DNA of 64,000 nucleotides from Candidatus Thorarchaeota archaeon (GTDB taxonomy: Archaea; Asgardarchaeota; Thorarchaeia; Thorarchaeales; Thorarchaeaceae), in the NCBI GenBank assembly GCA_019057475.1, contig DXJO01000006.1:132984-196983 (forward strand), given 5' to 3'. Shown here piece by piece: positions 53,982-64,000 of this stretch (the stretch's first letter is position 1; each line of letters begins with the position of its first letter). The translations under genes were made by a program, and so were the position numbers. Below the pieces are notes generated by a model. The model did no database searches. It saw only the letters and a program-made list of their open reading frames with translations, and was not told the DNA's origin.

Positions 53982-55034
53982 ATGCAATTAGGTGGCTTTG
54001 TGTTGATAACGACTCGAAAACTCAATAGAGTACGTAATTCGCTCTATGTTTATCTGCCGAAACAGTGGTGTTCCGACTACAACCTGACAAGCGATTCGGA
54101 GGTTCGCATTCAAGAGGGCGCGGACGGTACGCTTATGATATCGCCCACTTCCACGAAACCCAAGGAGAGGGATTATCTTCGATTTCAGATAGATGATGTG
54201 ATCAAGGACCAAATCGAGAACTTGTTGGTCGGAGCGTATATAGTGGGGGTGCAAGGACTCAATATCGGCACGTCCAAGCCTCTGGATATGAAGACCCGCG
54301 AAAGAATAAGTAGTTGGATCAGGAAGCTGCCAGGTTTCGAGATTCTGGACGAGCATGAGAAGAGCGTTACAATTAATGACACAAGCGAGAAGCAGTTCGT
54401 ACTACCTGTGTTGAGACGACAATTCTCCACAACAAAATACATGCTCGGGGGTCTCCTGCGGGCTCTGGAAACTGGCGAAACAGAGGAGACCTCTAGAATC
54501 GTAAGCCGGGATGATGATGTTGACCGTCATCGATACTTCGTTGAGCGGCTCTGCCACATTGCCCTGCACGACCCTGCCTACGCGCGCCGGATTTCAATAA
54601 CAACCTCTGATTGTCTTCACTTTAGTCTTGCGGCGAAGTACATCGAAAGAATAGCTGACCATGTGTGTGGTGCTATTGCCGAAATAGCTAACGTTGAGGA
54701 AGTCGATCCGTTTCTTGCTAAGTCAGGCAAAGCCCTCGCGAAAGCTTATGATGAAGCAACTCATACATTCTTCAGTTCCGAGGCAAATCGGGGGGATAAA
54801 CGTCGAACAGCCCTCACAAAAGCATCTAGAGAAGCATTCGAAGCGTTGATCAGTGCCAAACGGATGTCAGTAAGGCTCTCTAAGCGAGAAACCTCAAAGA
54901 GAAGCTACGGACCACATGAGGCTCTAATTCTATTCCACATGGAGAGAATAGCATCCTATTGCAGCGACATTGGAGAGGTTGCAATCAATCGAATCATCGA
55001 GAAACGAATCCATGGGCCGTCGATAGTGGAGTGA
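53982..55034 (+). CDS. AbrB-PhoU-type regulator
   Basis: A 350-residue archaeal protein. Residues 10-55 are a SpoVT/AbrB-like DNA-binding domain (LNRVRNSLYVYLPKQWCSDY, then SEVRIQEGADGTLMISP). The rest is a PhoU-like helical domain (RFQIDDVIKDQIENLLVGAY; LAAKYIERIADHVCGAIAE with the ExxxD-type metal helix; SREAFEALISAKRMSV; HMERIASYCSDIGEVAINR). The protein probably controls phosphate uptake genes, and here may bind its own operator. No phosphate transporter lies in the window. It is followed 5 bp later by a DNA methyltransferase gene. Confidence 0.85.
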   Translation: MQLGGFVLITTRKLNRVRNSLYVYLPKQWCSDYNLTSDSEVRIQEGADGTLMISPTSTKPKERDYLRFQIDDVIKDQIENLLVGAYIVGVQGLNIGTSKPLDMKTRERISSWIRKLPGFEILDEHEKSVTINDTSEKQFVLPVLRRQFSTTKYMLGGLLRALETGETEETSRIVSRDDDVDRHRYFVERLCHIALHDPAYARRISITTSDCLHFSLAAKYIERIADHVCGAIAEIANVEEVDPFLAKSGKALAKAYDEATHTFFSSEANRGDKRRTALTKASREAFEALISAKRMSVRLSKRETSKRSYGPHEALILFHMERIASYCSDIGEVAINRIIEKRIHGPSIVE

Positions 55035-55039
55035 TTGTA

Positions 55040-55885
55040 ATGGTTACCGACAGCTCAAAATCAAAGCACCTCAACGAACTAAATGGCAAGGACTGGGTCA
55101 AATCTACCAAGTCTTGGTTTGTTGTAAATCCTAGGCCGCGCAGGAAGGCACAGAAGAACCATCCTGCGAAATTTCCTGAAGAGCTTGTCAGTCGCTTTGT
55201 GCAGTTTTTTACCCAACCTGACGCATGGGTGATTGACCCTTTCGCCGGCGTAGGAAGTACATCCGTGGCTTGTGGTCAGCTCGAAAGGAACTCCGTAGGA
55301 ATTGAGCTAATGCCTGAATTCGTTGAGATAGGTCTCGAGGCTCTCAAAGCGACATCCATTGGCACTGAACACCATTTAATTGTGGGAGATTCTACTAAGA
55401 TAGATAGTGTACTTGCTGAGCACTTCGGCGACGATTTACCGGTATTTGATTTCCTGATAACGTCACCCCCGTATTGGAATATGCTGCGCAAGTCGCGTGG
55501 AGGGAATGAAACAGTTCACAAAGAGAGAGAGGCCAAAGGACTCAAGCAGTACTACAGCGATTCGAATCTGGATATTGGTAACATAAACTCGTACGAGAGC
55601 TACATCGAATCTGTTGGCCGAGTATTGGATGGTGTCCGTCCGTTCCTTTCTGACGGAGCGTATCTCGCGGTTGTTGCTCAAAACATGCGTGACGTTGATG
55701 GGATTATGCGACCCATTGCGTGGGACCTTGCACGCAGACTGTCTCACACCTACGAACTGAAACAGGAACAGATCTGGTGTCAGGATAACAAGCGCCTAGG
55801 TTGTTGGGGATTTCCCACTACCTATGTTTCGAACGTACACCACCATTACTGCCTTGTGCTCCAAAAAGCAAAAGCGAAAACCTAA
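55040..55885 (+). CDS. Solitary DNA methyltransferase (N4/N6 type)
   Basis: A 281-residue amino-methyltransferase acting on exocyclic amines of A or C in DNA. Motif I is IDPFAGVGSTSVACG, and the catalytic motif IV is ITSPPYWNM. Motif I precedes motif IV, so the order is that of the gamma-like class. The N-terminus includes HPAKFPEELVSRFVQFF, typical of the N6_N4_Mtase family. No restriction enzyme gene is nearby. GGAG at 55028-55031 is 8 nt before ATG 55040, and the stop of the PhoU gene is only 5 bp upstream, so the two are co-transcribed. Confidence 0.88.
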   Translation: MVTDSSKSKHLNELNGKDWVKSTKSWFVVNPRPRRKAQKNHPAKFPEELVSRFVQFFTQPDAWVIDPFAGVGSTSVACGQLERNSVGIELMPEFVEIGLEALKATSIGTEHHLIVGDSTKIDSVLAEHFGDDLPVFDFLITSPPYWNMLRKSRGGNETVHKEREAKGLKQYYSDSNLDIGNINSYESYIESVGRVLDGVRPFLSDGAYLAVVAQNMRDVDGIMRPIAWDLARRLSHTYELKQEQIWCQDNKRLGCWGFPTTYVSNVHHHYCLVLQKAKAKT

Positions 55886-55952: not shown

Positions 55953-58646
55953 ATGTTCAAACACGGTCGCCACCTCATCTGTTCGCTTCTAATTCTGTCT
56001 ATTGTTGTGTCTGCAAGTCCATTATGGAACGAGGCACATGTTGCTTCAAATCATATTCAAACATCGTTCACGCCTGCAGATTTCGCTTGGGAAACGTTCT
56101 CTAGGGACATGAACGTCACAACATTTGTTTCACCGGATGGCAGTCGCGATGAGATTTGGCACCTATTGCAGAGTGCTCAGGACAGCATCTACGTTGAGAT
56201 TTATGGTATTAACAATCCCTACATTCTTGACCTCATCCACGAGCTGCATGATTCAAAACCAATGCTGGAGATGAAATTCCTCCTAGGGTGGAACAGCTTG
56301 GGATATTACAGTCCAAATGATTACGTGGCAAATAACCTTACAGAGCTCGGCTATCCCGTCAGATGGACCAATGATACAGAGTTCACCTATGCTCATCAGA
56401 AATTCTTCATCATCGACAACATAACTACTGTGGTACATTCTGGCAACTGGGCAAAGACTAGCTTTCCAGAGGATGGTAAGAAAGCCAATCGTGAGTGGAG
56501 CATTGCTATGACTGACTTGGTCATTACAGAGTACTACCGTTCAGTATTTGATTATGATTGGGGGAACGGGATAGACTATGATCCAGTGATTCACGGCACA
56601 GGCGAGCCTCTTGTGTACACTGAAGCCTCCAGCACCTATCATCGACCATTCAATGAATCTGGGCACTTTAGCGGCACAATGAATGTAACACCCATAGTCA
56701 GTCCGGAAACCAGTCTGCAGGGAATTCTTTACTGCATAGACAGCGCAAAGGTCACATTAGACATCCAAATCCCCTACTTCACAAGCTATGGTGATGCAGG
56801 AGCAGTCGATGATGTCGTGGATGCCATCATCGCAGCAAAAGAACGAGGCGTGACTGTACGAGTGATTACTGAAGAGGGGCAAAAGGATAATGATGCAGTT
56901 GCTGCTGACCTAATGGCCTACGACATTCCTGTTATCTGGCAAGATGAGCGATGGTTTACTGCACAGCACAACAAGGGCATCATCGTTGATGGCCGCATGG
57001 TACTCATCAGCAGAATAAACTACAGCGACGGCAGCATTACTGCCAACCGTGAAGCAGGAGTAATTATCCTACACGAGGGCATTGCTCAATGGTACCAAGA
57101 GATTTACGACTTCGACTGGGGTTTGGGTGATTGTGATGTCATGGAGGAAGTCAATCTCTATTGGGAGCCAAACATACCCAAAGATGACGCAATAATCAAT
57201 GTAACAGTATACACACAGAAGCTGTATTCAGATGTTACCGAGGTCAAACTCGGTGTTAGAATCGCTGAGGGGGGCTGGATCAACCACACTATCACAGCCA
57301 ATGTCTTTCCGTCAGCAGAAGGTCAATATGAGAACTACTACCATGAAATTGCCGCTCAGCCAAACTTCACGAATATATCTGTGCAAGCCTTCGTTGAAGC
57401 TCTTGGGGTTTGGCACACTGGTGTAGAAATGCAGATACGCGTCCTCAACGAAATCGATTACACCTTCACGATTGATAGTCCTGAGGACATGGAATACGAA
57501 GCAGGTAGCATTGGACATTCAATAACGTGGTCACCGATTTCGTACAAAGCCCATAGTTACGAAGTTTACAGAAATGGCACAGAGGTAGCCTCCGGCAATT
57601 GGAATGGCTCGCCAATCACTGTTTCAATTGATGGATTATTTGCGAATCTGTATAACTTCACACTCAATGTGACTGATACTGAGGGACTATCCCGATACGA
57701 TACGGTGTATGTGCGTACACATCCATCGATTGACCCAACAATAACTGCGCCTGCAGATATGGGGTACGAGTACGGTTCTTCAGGACATTTCTTGGAGTGG
57801 GAGTCATACGATTTATACCCGAACTCGTATCAGGTATACCGCAACGGGACGCTTCACCTCTCTGGTAACTGGAGCGGAGCGAGTATTGTGGTTCAGGTTG
57901 ATGGTCTAGACCTTGCGATGTTCAACTACACTCTCATCGTTTTCGATGATTCAAGCAATTCAGCAAAAAGCACAGTCTGGGTTACTGTTGTTGATACAAC
58001 CAGTCCCACAATCAATCATCCCTCAGACTCTGAGGTCGAGGTTGGTACTTCAGGGAATCTGATTACATGGTCACCTGGAGACCTTCTTCCTTCTTCATAT
58101 GAGATACTGCGAAACGGAGCCGTCCTGTATTCAGGAATTTGGACAGGATCAAGCATTGTGATAAACGTAGACGGATTGGCCCTTGGATTATTCAACTATA
58201 CAGTGCAAGTTTCTGATACCAGTGGAAACACTGCTACGGATACTGTCTTCGTAACTGTGATTGACACCACTAGTCCAAGCATCAATGGTCCCGCAGCCAC
58301 TGACTATCTCTACGACAGTACGGGTAACTCCATTGTCTGGGTCGGGTCAGACATCCTCCCGATGTCATATCAAATCCTCAGAAACGGAGCTGTTATTGAT
58401 AGTGGAATCTGGGATGGGTCTGACATCACTATTTCGATTGACGGTCTAGAACCGGGAGAGTACAATTTCACAATTGCTGTTATAGACACGAGTGGGAACA
58501 CAGCAACACACACCACAATTGTAACTGTAACCCAACCGCTTGATGTCGTTGGAATGCTACTTGAGAATTGGGCGATTCTCGTAACAGCGGTTTCAGTGCT
58601 CGCCTTTGTGATTCTTGGGTCTCGCGTATGTCGATCTAAACGATGA
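55953..58646 (+). CDS. Exported phospholipase-D-like protein with four Ig-like repeats
   Basis: An 897-residue surface enzyme. Signal peptide (CSLLILSIVVSASPLW) is followed by two phospholipase D domains: first HKD motif HQKFFIIDN (at about 148), second HNKGIIVDG (at about 340), each with H-x-K-x4-D. A linker beta-domain follows (about 410-500), then four repeats of about 90 residues (505-865) ending in DTSGNTATDTVFVTV-type strands, and a C-terminal membrane helix (VSVLAFVILGSRVC) with a basic tail. The enzyme probably cleaves phospholipids, nucleic acid or another phosphodiester outside the cell and is fixed by its C-terminal anchor. It is monocistronic. Confidence 0.9.
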   Translation: MFKHGRHLICSLLILSIVVSASPLWNEAHVASNHIQTSFTPADFAWETFSRDMNVTTFVSPDGSRDEIWHLLQSAQDSIYVEIYGINNPYILDLIHELHDSKPMLEMKFLLGWNSLGYYSPNDYVANNLTELGYPVRWTNDTEFTYAHQKFFIIDNITTVVHSGNWAKTSFPEDGKKANREWSIAMTDLVITEYYRSVFDYDWGNGIDYDPVIHGTGEPLVYTEASSTYHRPFNESGHFSGTMNVTPIVSPETSLQGILYCIDSAKVTLDIQIPYFTSYGDAGAVDDVVDAIIAAKERGVTVRVITEEGQKDNDAVAADLMAYDIPVIWQDERWFTAQHNKGIIVDGRMVLISRINYSDGSITANREAGVIILHEGIAQWYQEIYDFDWGLGDCDVMEEVNLYWEPNIPKDDAIINVTVYTQKLYSDVTEVKLGVRIAEGGWINHTITANVFPSAEGQYENYYHEIAAQPNFTNISVQAFVEALGVWHTGVEMQIRVLNEIDYTFTIDSPEDMEYEAGSIGHSITWSPISYKAHSYEVYRNGTEVASGNWNGSPITVSIDGLFANLYNFTLNVTDTEGLSRYDTVYVRTHPSIDPTITAPADMGYEYGSSGHFLEWESYDLYPNSYQVYRNGTLHLSGNWSGASIVVQVDGLDLAMFNYTLIVFDDSSNSAKSTVWVTVVDTTSPTINHPSDSEVEVGTSGNLITWSPGDLLPSSYEILRNGAVLYSGIWTGSSIVINVDGLALGLFNYTVQVSDTSGNTATDTVFVTVIDTTSPSINGPAATDYLYDSTGNSIVWVGSDILPMSYQILRNGAVIDSGIWDGSDITISIDGLEPGEYNFTIAVIDTSGNTATHTTIVTVTQPLDVVGMLLENWAILVTAVSVLAFVILGSRVCRSKR
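57466..58536 (+). repeat. Four tandem Ig-like repeat modules (coding)
   Basis: Four copies of about 90 codons with the pattern EYxxGSxGHxITW...SYxVYRNGT...SGxWxGSxIxVxVDGL...YNFTxxVxDTSGNTAxDTVxVTV. Copies 3 and 4 share strong similarity (for example 'DTTSP', 'RNGAV', 'DTSGNTAT'), suggesting recent duplication. Similar modules are found on secreted proteins of many archaea. Confidence 0.75.
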
Positions 58647-59586: not shown

Positions 59587-59943
59587 CTAATCGGCAGATA
59601 ACGCGCCAGCTATGAATGTGTCTATCATCCTGCATGCGGGGCATCCGTGGTTCCTATACTCTAAGCCTGCCAAGGCACCCACCATGATTTTCTCCAATGC
59701 CAATGTCAAGCGTGACTTCCTTTGGAGGTTCAGCTTAAACCCGGACTTCTCGGAAGATGCTTCGAGTGCTGCCACCTGCTGTTTGAACTGTTCTATTGTC
59801 ATGAGGAAGTTGAAGTGACACACGCTGATTGGCGCTACATGCTCATTGAGATATACTACTGCATATCCATTGATCCCGTCATCCTGCTCTCTGAATTTGA
59901 TGTCCATCTGACGGATATCATTGGCCTCCATAAATACACTCAT
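59587..59943 (-). CDS. Uncharacterised protein with C-terminal CPxC
   Basis: A 118-residue protein, unrecognised. The first half is beta-rich (MDIKFREQDDGINGYAVVYL) with SVCHFNFLMTIEQFKQQVAA, then a basic linker, a hydrophobic helix (LALEKIMVGALAGLEY) and CPACRMIDTFIAGAL. The CPxC could bind metal or redox-cycle. It is on the same strand as the ArsA cluster but separated by about 140 bp. The tail-to-tail contact with the acetyltransferase gene leaves no intergenic space. Confidence 0.55.
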   Translation of the reverse strand: MSVFMEANDIRQMDIKFREQDDGINGYAVVYLNEHVAPISVCHFNFLMTIEQFKQQVAALEASSEKSGFKLNLQRKSRLTLALEKIMVGALAGLEYRNHGCPACRMIDTFIAGALSAD

Positions 59944-60082: not shown

Positions 60083-60274
60083 TCACGGTCCGGAAAATGA
60101 CTGAGAGAGGAGCCAGATCAGCAACGCGATAAGCGCTAGCAGAAACGCGCCTGTCAAGACCCAGCGCCAATCATCTCCCTCACCGAAGTCTGGCCAGCAA
60201 AACTGCTGGAAAGCCGTCCCCCTTCCGAAGAGTCTGCACGTCTTGGGAACCGGGGCTTTTGCAAATGCAAGCAT
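60083..60274 (-). CDS. Small protein with C-terminal membrane anchor, downstream of ArsA-like genes
   Basis: A 63-residue protein, the last gene of the minus-strand ArsA cluster, 64 bp after the preceding stop. The first 35 residues are hydrophilic with two Cys; residues 38-57 (VLTGAFLLALIALLIWLL) form a single hydrophobic helix followed by only seven polar residues. That is the topology of a tail-anchored protein, the client class of Get3. GAGG nine nt before the ATG gives weak translational support. Could be a chance frame; its position beside Get3-like genes makes it worth attention. Confidence 0.42.
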   Translation of the reverse strand: MLAFAKAPVPKTCRLFGRGTAFQQFCWPDFGEGDDWRWVLTGAFLLALIALLIWLLSQSFSGP

Positions 60275-60338
60275 AGTCCTTCGCCTCGCGATCGTCTACT
60301 GCTCCGTTGGATATACGAGCCATGCTAAATTCTCTTAC

Positions 60339-61349
60339 CTAGTCTGGCTTGAACTTCTGCATGTCCTCACAGACTTTTGCGATTCCATCAACGCCTAACA
60401 CTTCCGTGGAATACAGAGGGATGTACGCGCTGACCAAGTCTCCGAGTTGATTGTGAATCATGTCCATGTATCGATCTTGCTGTTTGAAGCTATTCTTCAT
60501 ATACTCGGTAGCATCCGCTTCTGCAACTGCTCGTGGAATAATGCGATTCACGAAGACACCGCCCACGGGGATATCGAATGCTCGTACCATCTTGATGAAG
60601 CGTTCTACTACTGCGATGGGAAGTGCCAACGGGATCGTGACAAAGATGAACGCAGTCTTCTCAGCGTCGTTGAGGATTGCTTTTGCTTTCTGCATCTTCT
60701 CATGTTGACGCAGCAAGTCTGCCATCATCGGGTCTTTCTCAACTTCCTCCTTAATTTTGTCCTTTCGGAAGGACAGTTTCACACGGAGCGATAATGCTTC
60801 CTTCCTGCTCTCAATCATGCGGCCCAGCCAAAGGTCATAGATCTTGCTCAGACCGAGCAAGCGAATTGCATTGGCTACTGCCGCACAATCGAAGATGATG
60901 ATGTCGTAGTTCTCCTCCTTTTCAAGCATTATATCAGTCATGGTGTCGAACTGGGCAGACTCCTCGAAGGCGGGATTCGTGGCGGCAATCTCAATGAATG
61001 AAGCAGGATCGACTGGAATATCCGCCCACTTGAGAAATGACGTGATGCGCTCTGTCAGCTGTTCCCTGTATACCTCAATCTTTTTTTTGATATCTACCTC
61101 TACAGCCCACAGATTCTCAAGCCCTTCGATTTTCTGAACTCCGCGTCCCCAGATATCTTGGCCATAGAGGCTGGTAAGGGAGTGAACCGGGTTCAGCGAG
61201 GCAACAAGAGTCTTCTTGCCCTGCGTGGCGAAATAATGCCCAATGGCAGCAGCACTGATTGTCTTGCCAACTCCGCCTTTACCTCCGGTAAAGAAGAACT
61301 TGATTGATGGATGCTTTTCTACGAACTCTTTGAATGTAGGTGCTGTCAT
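60339..61349 (-). CDS. ArsA/Get3-like ATPase with altered switch I (paralogue 1)
   Basis: A 336-residue ATPase of the ArsA/Get3 family. The deviant Walker A is TGGKGGVGKT (residues 21-30). Switch I, normally STDPAHxLSD, reads SLNPVHSLTS: the catalytic Asp is Asn53 (codon at 61193-61191). Switch II is DCAAVANAIRLLGL instead of DTAPTGHTLRLL, lacking its Gly-His. In Get3, Asp-to-Asn at this position blocks hydrolysis while allowing ATP-bound closure. The P-loop is intact, so nucleotide binding is expected. There is no CxxC. It starts 4 bp after paralogue 2, and the two probably form a heterodimer. A terminal segment VNRIIPRAVAEADATEYMKN is typical of the family. Confidence 0.9.
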   Translation of the reverse strand: MTAPTFKEFVEKHPSIKFFFTGGKGGVGKTISAAAIGHYFATQGKKTLVASLNPVHSLTSLYGQDIWGRGVQKIEGLENLWAVEVDIKKKIEVYREQLTERITSFLKWADIPVDPASFIEIAATNPAFEESAQFDTMTDIMLEKEENYDIIIFDCAAVANAIRLLGLSKIYDLWLGRMIESRKEALSLRVKLSFRKDKIKEEVEKDPMMADLLRQHEKMQKAKAILNDAEKTAFIFVTIPLALPIAVVERFIKMVRAFDIPVGGVFVNRIIPRAVAEADATEYMKNSFKQQDRYMDMIHNQLGDLVSAYIPLYSTEVLGVDGIAKVCEDMQKFKPD

Positions 61350-61353
61350 CTTT

Positions 61354-62361
61354 CTAATCCTCCGTTATTTTGCCATCCCAATTCATCATAATGTCACCCA
61401 CTTCGGCAATCATTTTCAGTCCCTTGGGTTCCCGATCAAACATTGGGATTACTGCACAAACATAGTTGCCCAATTCCTTCTCGATTTGAACCAAGTATTT
61501 TTGCTGCATCTCTATGCGTTCACGTAGAAAGTCGCCCAGGTCATCACGCTTGAGAAGTTCCCGAGGATAGACCTGGTTGACAACAACCCCAGTAAGGGTG
61601 ATGTCCATCTGCGCAAACATATCCAGCGCACGCCTGGTGTCCAAGATTGCCATCTTCTCTGGGACAATGACCATGTAGAACGCTGTTCTCTTGCTATCAG
61701 TAAGGAGGTCCTGGAAAAAGCCAAGTTTCTTACGGATTTCCTGCAGCTCGTTAAGCATCTCATCTTGACCGGAAGCTGCTCCCTTCTGTTGAATTCGGTA
61801 TGCAGAATCACCGTATTCTTGGGCCATTCTTCGCGTTTCTTCCATCTTGTCAATCCACATATCTAGTATCCGCGCCATTGATACCATTCTGATTCCGTGA
61901 CCAAATGGAGGCATATCAAACACGTAAAAGTCGAATTCCTGAGACGCTAGAAGACCTGCCATGGCGTCGTAGGTGGCTGACTCGTGCATCGCCGGTTCAG
62001 CTGCGGCTGCAGTTATGTACTCATCAATCTCTCTTGGAATCTCATCGATTCCGTACATGTCCTTGATCTTCTGGCGAATCTCTTCCTGAAAGATGGCTAT
62101 TCGCTTATCAGCGTCTATCTCCATTACATACAGGCTCTCTTGTAGCTCCTGTCTACCCTTCCCAAAGATGTCTTTCTCGAAGATATCGGATAGCGACGCC
62201 TGCGGATCGGTACTGAAGCAGAGAGCCCGCCGACCCTTCTTTGCCAGCCAAGATGAGAGGGCAGCGCTGCATGTTGTCTTGCCCAATCCACCCTTGCCGG
62301 CGAACACTGCGATTTTCGTATCGTGATTAGATGAATAATAGTCACTCATTTTCGAAGTCAT
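61354..62361 (-). CDS. ArsA/Get3-like ATPase with complete hydrolytic Asp (paralogue 2)
   Basis: A 335-residue ATPase, paralogue of the gene downstream. Walker A is AGKGGLGKTT (21-30). Switch I reads STDPQASLSDIF: Asp52 is retained but the usual His is Ala. Switch II reads DMPPFGHGIRMVSM with Gly-His kept. A long helical segment (residues 165-215) lies where Get3 has its client-binding helical domain. GAGGTGAGG precedes ATG 62361. Together with paralogue 1 it would give one competent and one impaired site. Similar unequal ArsA pairs exist in mycobacteria (Rv3679-Rv3680), where they act as heterodimers. Confidence 0.92.
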   Translation of the reverse strand: MTSKMSDYYSSNHDTKIAVFAGKGGLGKTTCSAALSSWLAKKGRRALCFSTDPQASLSDIFEKDIFGKGRQELQESLYVMEIDADKRIAIFQEEIRQKIKDMYGIDEIPREIDEYITAAAAEPAMHESATYDAMAGLLASQEFDFYVFDMPPFGHGIRMVSMARILDMWIDKMEETRRMAQEYGDSAYRIQQKGAASGQDEMLNELQEIRKKLGFFQDLLTDSKRTAFYMVIVPEKMAILDTRRALDMFAQMDITLTGVVVNQVYPRELLKRDDLGDFLRERIEMQQKYLVQIEKELGNYVCAVIPMFDREPKGLKMIAEVGDIMMNWDGKITED

Positions 62362-62409
62362 AATGCCTCACCTCTAAGTATGAATGCTGGAACTAGTGGA
62401 CCAGCTACC

Positions 62410-62700
62410 TTAGAACAATGCGTCAGTGAAATCACGTTCCTTGAATAGAGACCGTTTCCAGGTCTTGATATTCGGAACTGCATACGGTAACAGTTTCAAC
62501 GAGTAGTACGGAGGAAGGATGGGAATACCCAACATGTCTCCCAAGGTGATGAGCATAAATAAGTGTTCGAGATACATACGAGTCTTCAAGGCGTACCGCG
62601 TCATACCTTGCATTGCCATACCATAGAAGAAGTCCTTCACAGCTTCCTTTGCACCGCCCCTTTTCTTATCAGGGGCATCCTTGTCTTTTTTTTTCCCCAT
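62410..62700 (-). CDS. Small hydrophobic protein, ArsA-cluster paralogue A
   Basis: A 96-residue protein with a Lys/Asp-rich N-terminus and a hydrophobic C-terminal half. It shares with the protein at 62906 the pattern ITLGxxLGxPxLxxYYS, then a Pro, W-x-R-x3-KERD and DxxF at the end, so they are paralogues. One or two membrane-associated helices are likely (HLFMLITLGDMLGIP; LKLLPYAVPNI). It starts at ATG 62700 (a TTG at 62712 is in frame) and lies 48 bp before the ATPase genes. A TTTATTGG box about 95 bp upstream may be its own promoter. Function unknown; a membrane partner or client of the ATPases is likely. Confidence 0.72.
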   Translation of the reverse strand: MGKKKDKDAPDKKRGGAKEAVKDFFYGMAMQGMTRYALKTRMYLEHLFMLITLGDMLGIPILPPYYSLKLLPYAVPNIKTWKRSLFKERDFTDALF

Positions 62701-62905
62701 AGGAACCACCAATTGGTCGAAAGCTGGGAAACCTATATCTGTTGTGATACTTTTGGCGCTGTGGAAATATCAACCTTGATGCATGAAACCAATAAATCTC
62801 TTCATGTTCTTGCGCTATCATGAGCATGTAGGACGCCATTAGATGCTGGTATTCATGCTTTGAACTGGTTCATATTGGGGCGTTTTTCTGTAAGGTCTAT
62901 GTTGC

Positions 62906-63214
62906 CTATTCAAACATTCTGTCAAGCATGTCCCGCTCCTTTAATACTCGTCTTCGCCAAGAAAAAAATTGCGGAAGCAGGTGCACCAAGACTATTCGAG
63001 AGTAATATGTCGACAAAGTGGGGTACCCCAGCAGGGTGCCCAGGGTTATAAAGATTAGAGCATTGTCGTAGTGCGATTTCGTCTTTCTGAGAGGCTCTGC
63101 AAGACTCAGCTTCTGAGCCTGCCAAATGCCGGCTAAGATTGCTCTTATCGACTTAGTTATCCGCAAACGAGTGTCATCCATGTAACCTATAGAGCATCCG
63201 CCCAATAAACGCAT
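62906..63214 (-). CDS. Small hydrophobic protein, ArsA-cluster paralogue B
   Basis: A 102-residue protein, the first of the cluster on this strand. Its C-terminal 60 residues match paralogue A: FITLGTLLGYPTLSTYYS, then LLPQFFSWRRRVLKERDMLD and a final Met-Phe-Glu. The N-terminus is basic. Two starts are possible, ATG 63214 and ATG 63181 (MDDTRLRITKSI). It is separated from paralogue A by a 205-bp gap that holds nothing else I can support. A 14-bp palindrome lies 18 bp upstream. Confidence 0.68.
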   Translation of the reverse strand: MRLLGGCSIGYMDDTRLRITKSIRAILAGIWQAQKLSLAEPLRKTKSHYDNALIFITLGTLLGYPTLSTYYSRIVLVHLLPQFFSWRRRVLKERDMLDRMFE

Positions 63215-63231
63215 GGGTCATGCGAATGAAG

Positions 63232-63245
63232 CTTCAAGCTTGAAG
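63232..63245. promoter_or_regulatory. Perfect 14-bp palindrome upstream of the ArsA cluster
   Basis: CTTCAAGCTTGAAG is its own reverse complement, 17-31 bp upstream of the ATG at 63214. Its position after the CstA-gene terminator makes it a possible operator of the small-protein/ArsA genes. Confidence 0.4.
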
Positions 63246-63360: not shown

Positions 63361-64000
63361 CTATGCTTCAGTCTCTCCTATTGGGCCACGTTTCAACGCC
63401 GCCCAAGCGTCCACGAACACCAATACTCCGAGTATGATCAGGATGACTGTAATTCCAATAAATGTAACAGTCAACGCCTGAGCTGGCAAGATGTTCCCTG
63501 CTGCCGCCGCGTCTCCAATCCAGCTCCCAGCCCTAGCGTAGTAGTACGGCGCAGTGGTGAGCGCTCTTACGAAGACCCAACACTCCCATACGAGTGCAGC
63601 CAAACAGGTTACAATCATGAAGAGTGCAGGAATCAACGTGTAGTGCGTTGGCTTCTTGGCGCGTGCTAAGTAAACAGAACCAAGCATTAGGCAAAGACCT
63701 GCGAGCAGTTGGTTGCTTCCACCGAATAGCAGCCAAATGTGATACCAAGCACCAGTGGCCGCGAAGATGAATGCAATGAGACAACCAATGAAGGCGCCTA
63801 TCCATTTATTCCTGAACAGCGGTGCGATTGGTGAAGTACCAGCAAGGTCAGCGGCTGCCATCCTAAAGAATCGCGGCATCAATTGCAGTACGGTGATGGC
63901 ATACAGCTCCAGTACCATTGCAAAAAAGGCAATAAGAATCACGCTTGACACTGCTGACCCACCAAATAGACCTTGGGTAAGGATTGTGGCACCCACTGGG
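63361..64000 (-). CDS. cstA: CstA-family carbon starvation protein, C-terminal part (5' end outside window)
   Basis: The last 212 or so residues of a CstA-family membrane protein; the frame runs off the right edge. Seen are AFFAMVLELYAITVLQLMPR, IGCLIAFIFAATGAWYHIWL, then LFGGSNQLLAGLCLMLGSVY (a typical CstA segment) and two further helices, with a charged tail ending in GETEA. Bacterial CstA and its relatives import peptides or pyruvate; the archaeal substrate is uncertain. A good terminator follows the stop. Confidence 0.88.
   Translation of the reverse strand, partial: PVGATILTQGLFGGSAVSSVILIAFFAMVLELYAITVLQLMPRFFRMAAADLAGTSPIAPLFRNKWIGAFIGCLIAFIFAATGAWYHIWLLFGGSNQLLAGLCLMLGSVYLARAKKPTHYTLIPALFMIVTCLAALVWECWVFVRALTTAPYYYARAGSWIGDAAAAGNILPAQALTVTFIGITVILIILGVLVFVDAWAALKRGPIGETEA

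Follow-up and report, generated by a model that had tools for sequence, protein, structure and literature searches.

A CstA gene accompanied by two unequal ArsA/Get3-type ATPases in a Thorarchaeota archaeon: a likely ATP-controlled nutrient transporter

Analysis of 64,000 nucleotides from a Candidatus Thorarchaeota archaeon (assembly GCA_019057475.1, contig DXJO01000006.1, positions 132,984 to 196,983; this whole stretch is hereafter the window) revealed a gene set on the minus strand in the order cstA, small protein B, small protein A, ATPase 2, ATPase 1 and a 63-residue open reading frame (ORF). The set is characterized by its gene order, by the co-occurrence and co-inheritance of its members and by a strict Asp/Asn division between the switch I loops of the two ATPases. 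Judged from sequence, it likely encodes an ATP-controlled nutrient transporter. We give a probability of about 0.55 to the reading that the ATPases form a heterodimer whose use of ATP gates or drives CstA-mediated uptake; judging from the E. coli protein, the likely substrate of CstA would be pyruvate, peptides or some related small metabolite. An earlier sequence-only reading of this DNA had placed five reading frames on one strand, from small protein B to the 63-residue ORF, and an ORF check of the window found all five on the minus strand at the positions it gave, with a gap of 4 bases between ATPase 2 and ATPase 1. One gene upstream of small protein B, the set is opened by cstA, which is cut by the window edge (C-terminal part at 63361..64000, minus strand, CstA family, PF02554); the whole gene is a full ORF of 593 aa that extends past the window edge (L004:6345-8126, minus strand).

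The two ATPases (ATPase 2 at 61354..62361 and ATPase 1 at 60339..61349, both minus strand) are single-domain proteins with lengths of 335 and 336 aa and share 29% identity. Each matches PF02374 (ArsA_ATPase) in one stretch (E 7e-58 and 6e-66), in agreement with the ArsA/Get3 fold proposed earlier for both, and the GKGG-x-GK loop is retained in both. The switch I loops show a reciprocal loss: the ATPase 1 consensus S-x-N-P-V/I-H-S (SLNPVHS in the window) keeps the His and has Asn at the catalytic position, and the ATPase 2 consensus S-x-D-P-Q-A-S (STDPQAS in the window) keeps the catalytic Asp and has lost the His. Across the retrieved loci, window included, Asn was found in 71/71 copies of ATPase 1 and Asp in 77/77 copies of ATPase 2, the paralogue class being set by which of the window's two ATPases a copy resembled most and then checked by tree. 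When full-length sequences were aligned with the canonical Get3 of the same genome (STDPAHS), the counts were 65/65 and 71/71, and a later sample (24 regions, minus 3 duplicates and 2 without an ATPase) gave Asn in 18/18 and Asp in 19/19. A form with a single ArsA, described below, keeps both Asp and His (4/4). In the tree, ATPase 1 (27 rows) and ATPase 2 (29 rows) fall into separate clades with support of 99 and 97, which, together with the strict Asp/Asn division, bears out the earlier observation of two paralogue pairs and an unequal ATPase pair. We take the catalytic Asp to be the counterpart of D57 of yeast Get3, an equivalence drawn through alignment to the canonical motif. Yeast Get3 D57N has been described as binding ATP and not hydrolysing it (PMC12506534).

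Both ATPases lack conserved cysteines. The CxxC motif is present in 0/65 full-length sequences of ATPase 1 and 1/71 of ATPase 2 (0/71 and 2/77 in the unfiltered sets), and the best Cys column reaches 18% in ATPase 1 and 44% in ATPase 2. The genome encodes a separate canonical Get3, in which CxxC is present. The Met-rich client helix of Get3 was considered as a further discriminator and rejected, the separation not being clean: the corresponding segment has a mean of 3.55 and 1.17 Met versus 9, 7 and 4 in three archaeal Get3 proteins, and its mean hydropathy overlaps.

A profile search of genome contigs with small protein A yielded 436 confirmed relatives, of which the best 80 loci were kept, a sample biased to close relatives. 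Because these 80 share the same gene order, the gene set is not a chance arrangement. Their titles cover archaea (Asgard, Bathyarchaeota, Thermoproteota, Euryarchaeota and Methanoperedens) and bacteria (Bacillota, Chloroflexi, Deltaproteobacteria, Rokubacteria, Acetobacteraceae and an actinobacterium). ATPase 2 adjoins small A downstream in 77/80 loci and ATPase 1 follows in 71/80; all misses lie at contig ends, 3 for ATPase 2 (at most 268 bases left) and 9 for ATPase 1 (at most 980 bases). The first of the outcomes named as refuting the sequence-only reading, small proteins missing beside ArsA pairs in relatives, did not occur. CstA was counted in 68/80 loci (52 upstream on the same strand, 5 downstream, 11 on the other strand), and in L082 it lies 1.9 kb upstream, beyond the distance limit of the count. 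A second protein of the small family stands immediately upstream of A in 22/80 loci and anywhere in the locus in 40/80.

Co-occurrence was also evident at the level of phyla. Among 227 genomes of the window's phylum, small A was found in 8 and CstA in 6, all of them within the 8, and six other genomes of the same genus had neither. In the phylum of Methanodesulfokora, small A and CstA are present in the same 14 of 29 genomes, with two small-protein matches each. The 148 genomes in the phylum of a deltaproteobacterial carrier include 74 with CstA, 19 with small A and 18 with both, 3 of these 18 being of the single-ArsA form. The latter two samples were centred on known carriers and include some genomes behind the 80 loci; since the genomes are related by descent and many are incomplete, the Fisher values are too small. 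Between CstA, small A and the two ATPases, the pairwise distances over the 52 loci that have all four genes show correlations of 0.86-0.96, a level reached by 0/2000 permutations. In quick trees on chosen subsets, some Bacillota are placed among archaea for ATPases and CstA alike, suggesting that the gene set appears to have been transferred as a whole.

A 55-row CstA tree, built from the window's CstA, that of E. coli, 27 of 62 long CstAs from the 80 loci, 5 of the single-ArsA form and 21 with neither, resolved the CstAs accompanying the ATPase pair into one clade and those of the single-ArsA form into another, with support of 100 each and one misfit row (L111, branch 10), rows L111-L134 being judged on 1-1.5 kb of flank. 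The single-ArsA form (L136, L137, L139, L140 and L196) comprises CstA, a divergent small protein of ~90 aa and one ArsA. In 19/20 further CstA regions, chosen mostly for having no small A found there, small protein and ArsA were both absent within ~5 kb where the contig allowed, ruling out small A as a universal companion of CstA. The predicted fold of the CstA orthologue in L020 is of the LeuT/APC type, and a PDB sequence search returned no CstA-family chain. By a term search, a survey of Asgard transporters makes no mention of CstA (PMC7997004).

Systems of this kind have been known as a prediction since 2010, when Castillo and Saier (PMC2963123) described cstA-cstX-(cstY)-arsA operons without arsR, with a CstX of ~90 aa and one span, a CstY of ~210 aa and a single span in some archaea, and single-domain ArsA homologues of ~330 aa. 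Their 26 CstA-ArsA associations included CstX in 24 and CstY in five archaea, with adjacent arsA pairs in two organisms and two CstX paralogues in two organisms, and the sequence-only reading was therefore mistaken in knowing of no description of such a set. The authors reported co-evolving trees, proposed that CstA is energized by ArsA with CstX as the linker, stated that, in the single-domain proteins, the SXD Asp 'can be substituted only by N', and suggested these ArsAs as possible homodimers; the words 'heterodimer' and 'YbdD' are absent from the main text. The genes described here agree with the published type in having cstA in the operon and in the size of the single-domain ArsAs, and differ by the strict Asp/Asn division between paralogues, no such division appearing in the accessible part of the published account. 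As far as a literature search shows, what is new here is this strict split, the CstA clade accompanying the ATPase pair, and the co-occurrence counts, breadth and Asgard members.

Small proteins B (62906..63214) and A (62410..62712), both on the minus strand, were confirmed as relatives of one another: the C-terminal block that had been noticed in both gave a BLASTP alignment of 40% identity across 58 residues, and their family profiles matched with hhalign probabilities of 99.6% and, in a second comparison, 99.9%. Against NF041419 (cory-CC-star) A scores 30.9 bits (E 2e-7) and B 17.1 bits (E 4e-3) versus the curated cut-off of 80, which points to relatives of cory-CC-star outside the NF041419 equivalog. 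Precomputed PF25952 matches were present on small A relatives (all 120 among the matches listed, of 736) and on 4/4 small B relatives; a literature search found no paper naming cory-CC-star or PF25952. The start of small A may instead be at 62700 (96 aa, as in relative P0001) and that of small B at 63181 (91 aa, as in relative P0242), so that the two span 91-102 aa, fitting the ~90-aa CstX, with best hydropathies of 1.56 and 1.26, borderline for a span. Small A is probably CstX; the grounds for this are its length, its place in the operon and the locus of Symbiobacterium (L097) rather than sequence comparison to the published CstX. Its predicted structure is a two-helix hairpin (pLDDT 75.5, pTM 0.48), for which no PDB structure matched at E ≤ 0.001.

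A relationship of small A to YbdD, suggested by a shared pattern, was rejected at an hhalign probability of 2.0%, the YbdD alignment being narrow, near E. coli and thus of limited sensitivity; neither A nor B matched PF04328 (YbdD/YjiX) at E ≤ 1. Replacement of YbdD by small A was likewise rejected: YbdD was found in 1/40 genomes with the system (taken from those behind the 80 loci), yet in the deltaproteobacterial carrier's phylum it is found in 0/148 genomes although 74 of them have CstA, which means that lacking YbdD is no special trait of the system.

In the proposed mechanism, ATPase 2 would be the motor that hydrolyses ATP, and ATPase 1 would bind ATP as a long-lived latch, like Get3 D57N. 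The small proteins would serve as docking points for the ATPases on CstA's cytosolic side, and each ATP cycle would close and open the heterodimer and thereby switch the carrier. A predicted LeuT-type carrier would be controlled in the way that ArsA acts on ArsB and that ABC transporters with one degenerate site work. In a bolder version, which we regard as doubtful, a LeuT-fold carrier shared by archaea and bacteria would have become an ATP-driven pump: in an obligate heterodimer of Get3-fold subunits, one site would hydrolyse ATP and the other would hold it permanently as a latch. This would be the Get3-fold counterpart of degenerate-site ABC transporters, with the small paralogues docking the subunits. 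Several observations weigh against ATP-dependent gating or driving of CstA. The carrier gene is downstream or on the opposite strand in 16/80 loci; the small proteins have no clear membrane span (best 19-residue mean hydropathy 1.28-1.62 across 79 small A sequences), and the small A model is of modest quality. Small A is missing from 56/74 CstA genomes in the deltaproteobacterial carrier's phylum, in line with the 19/20 further CstA regions noted above, and the NCBI name for E. coli CstA is pyruvate/proton symporter; this name and the ATPase-free CstAs imply that ATP is not a requirement of CstA in itself. The same gene order would also fit a role in assembly or regulation.

Such an assembly role is conceivable, if unlikely: the pair could be a Get3-like chaperone whose one task is to insert or assemble CstA together with the small proteins, without any part in transport. 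Membership in the Get3 family and the small hydrophobic partners suit this explanation, and a dedicated client would equally produce tight co-inheritance with CstA, but 19/20 other CstA regions have no such neighbour, CxxC is all but absent and the genome already has a canonical Get3. Also improbable is a sensing role, in which the pair would read the energy or metabolite status and turn CstA on or off according to the ATP/ADP ratio, with energetic coupling slight or absent. One kept and one degenerate site would suit a slow switch and CstA is named for carbon starvation, whereas energetic coupling has been described within this ATPase family for ArsA acting on ArsB.

The sequence-only reading had favoured a GET-like targeting system with the 63-residue protein as its tail-anchored client. 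That protein (60083..60274, minus strand) begins 64 bases past ATPase 1, and its C-terminal segment is indeed clearly hydrophobic (2.58 as the best mean hydropathy over 19 residues). However, a search within the retrieved loci found a relative in L020 only (43% over 49 residues, 0.7 kb after ATPase 1), placing the protein outside the conserved core, and the near-absence of CxxC, the separate Get3 and CstA as the constant partner make targeting of such a client very improbable. The paralogue pairs and their asymmetry thus survive from the earlier interpretation, and the tail-anchor system with its client is not supported. Least credible is an arsenite pump like ArsA/ArsB. ArsA family membership speaks for it, but no Cys is conserved, the neighbour is CstA, and the TIGR04291 arsenical ATPase model gives 95-98 bits versus a cut-off of 650.

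Several neighbouring genes were recorded. Outside the window, a divergent 243-aa protein with an N-terminal hydrophobic segment is encoded near cstA (L004:9003-9734, plus strand); it is related to neighbours in L020 and L021 (50-51%), its single-linkage cluster covers 39/80 loci, a few of them doubtful, and it is probably CstY. Between cstA and this gene lies a 220-aa ORF (L004:8312-8974, minus strand) with matches under 14 locus ids, some overlapping, those in L020 and L021 being strongest. A Cys-containing family of ~130 aa (GLLP/GIMP...C..C; L054:14915-15343 and others) occurs near the cstA cluster in 25/80 loci by single linkage, with thioredoxin-like hints below cut-off. Past the operon, the window encodes a 118-aa protein with a C-P-A-C motif (59587-59943, minus strand) and no Pfam or NCBIfam match, whose relatives among the retrieved loci are confined to L020 and L021, after ATPase 1 (53-55%). 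Further away are an 897-aa protein (55953-58646, plus strand), which combines PLD-like stretches with PKD/Ig-type repeats and is hydrophobic at its C-terminal end, and an ORF (54959-55885, plus strand) that, from its DPFAGVGST and SPPYWN motifs, is presumably a DNA methyltransferase. Scans for tRNAs and Rfam families gave no matches, and a promoter/terminator scan gave a result no different from shuffled sequence.

Among known systems, Get3/TRC40 shares family and Walker A motif (GKGGVGKT) with the ATPases described here, which differ by the near-absence of CxxC, the Asn in place of the catalytic Asp in one subunit and a changed switch II. An unequal pair of Get3-fold ATPases, like the window's, is formed by mycobacterial BagA/BagB (Rv3679/Rv3680; PDB 6bs3), although against the NCBIfam BagA and BagB models the window's ATPases score 38-54 bits versus cut-offs of 400 and 521. 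The proposed asymmetric-site logic of the pair can be likened to that of ABC transporters with one degenerate site. Pyruvate uptake by E. coli CstA requires the small partner YbdD (PMC5847655). There too the gene of a CstA-family carrier stands next to one for a short companion protein, but with no ArsA beside it and no detectable homology between YbdD and small A. Association with ArsA lets ArsB use ATP besides proton motive force (PMC13381914), and how an ArsA/Get3-type ATPase drives a carrier is described there as unresolved even for ArsAB. The present system is widespread in nature and has the Get3 ATP-trap change built permanently into one subunit; it would offer a ready-made asymmetric model and may reveal how archaea and carrier bacteria power CstA-type uptake. 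As in the ArsA-ArsB pump, an ArsA-type ATPase would act on a secondary-type carrier (PMC13381914), here with a carrier of another family, two separate ATPase subunits and no conserved cysteines.

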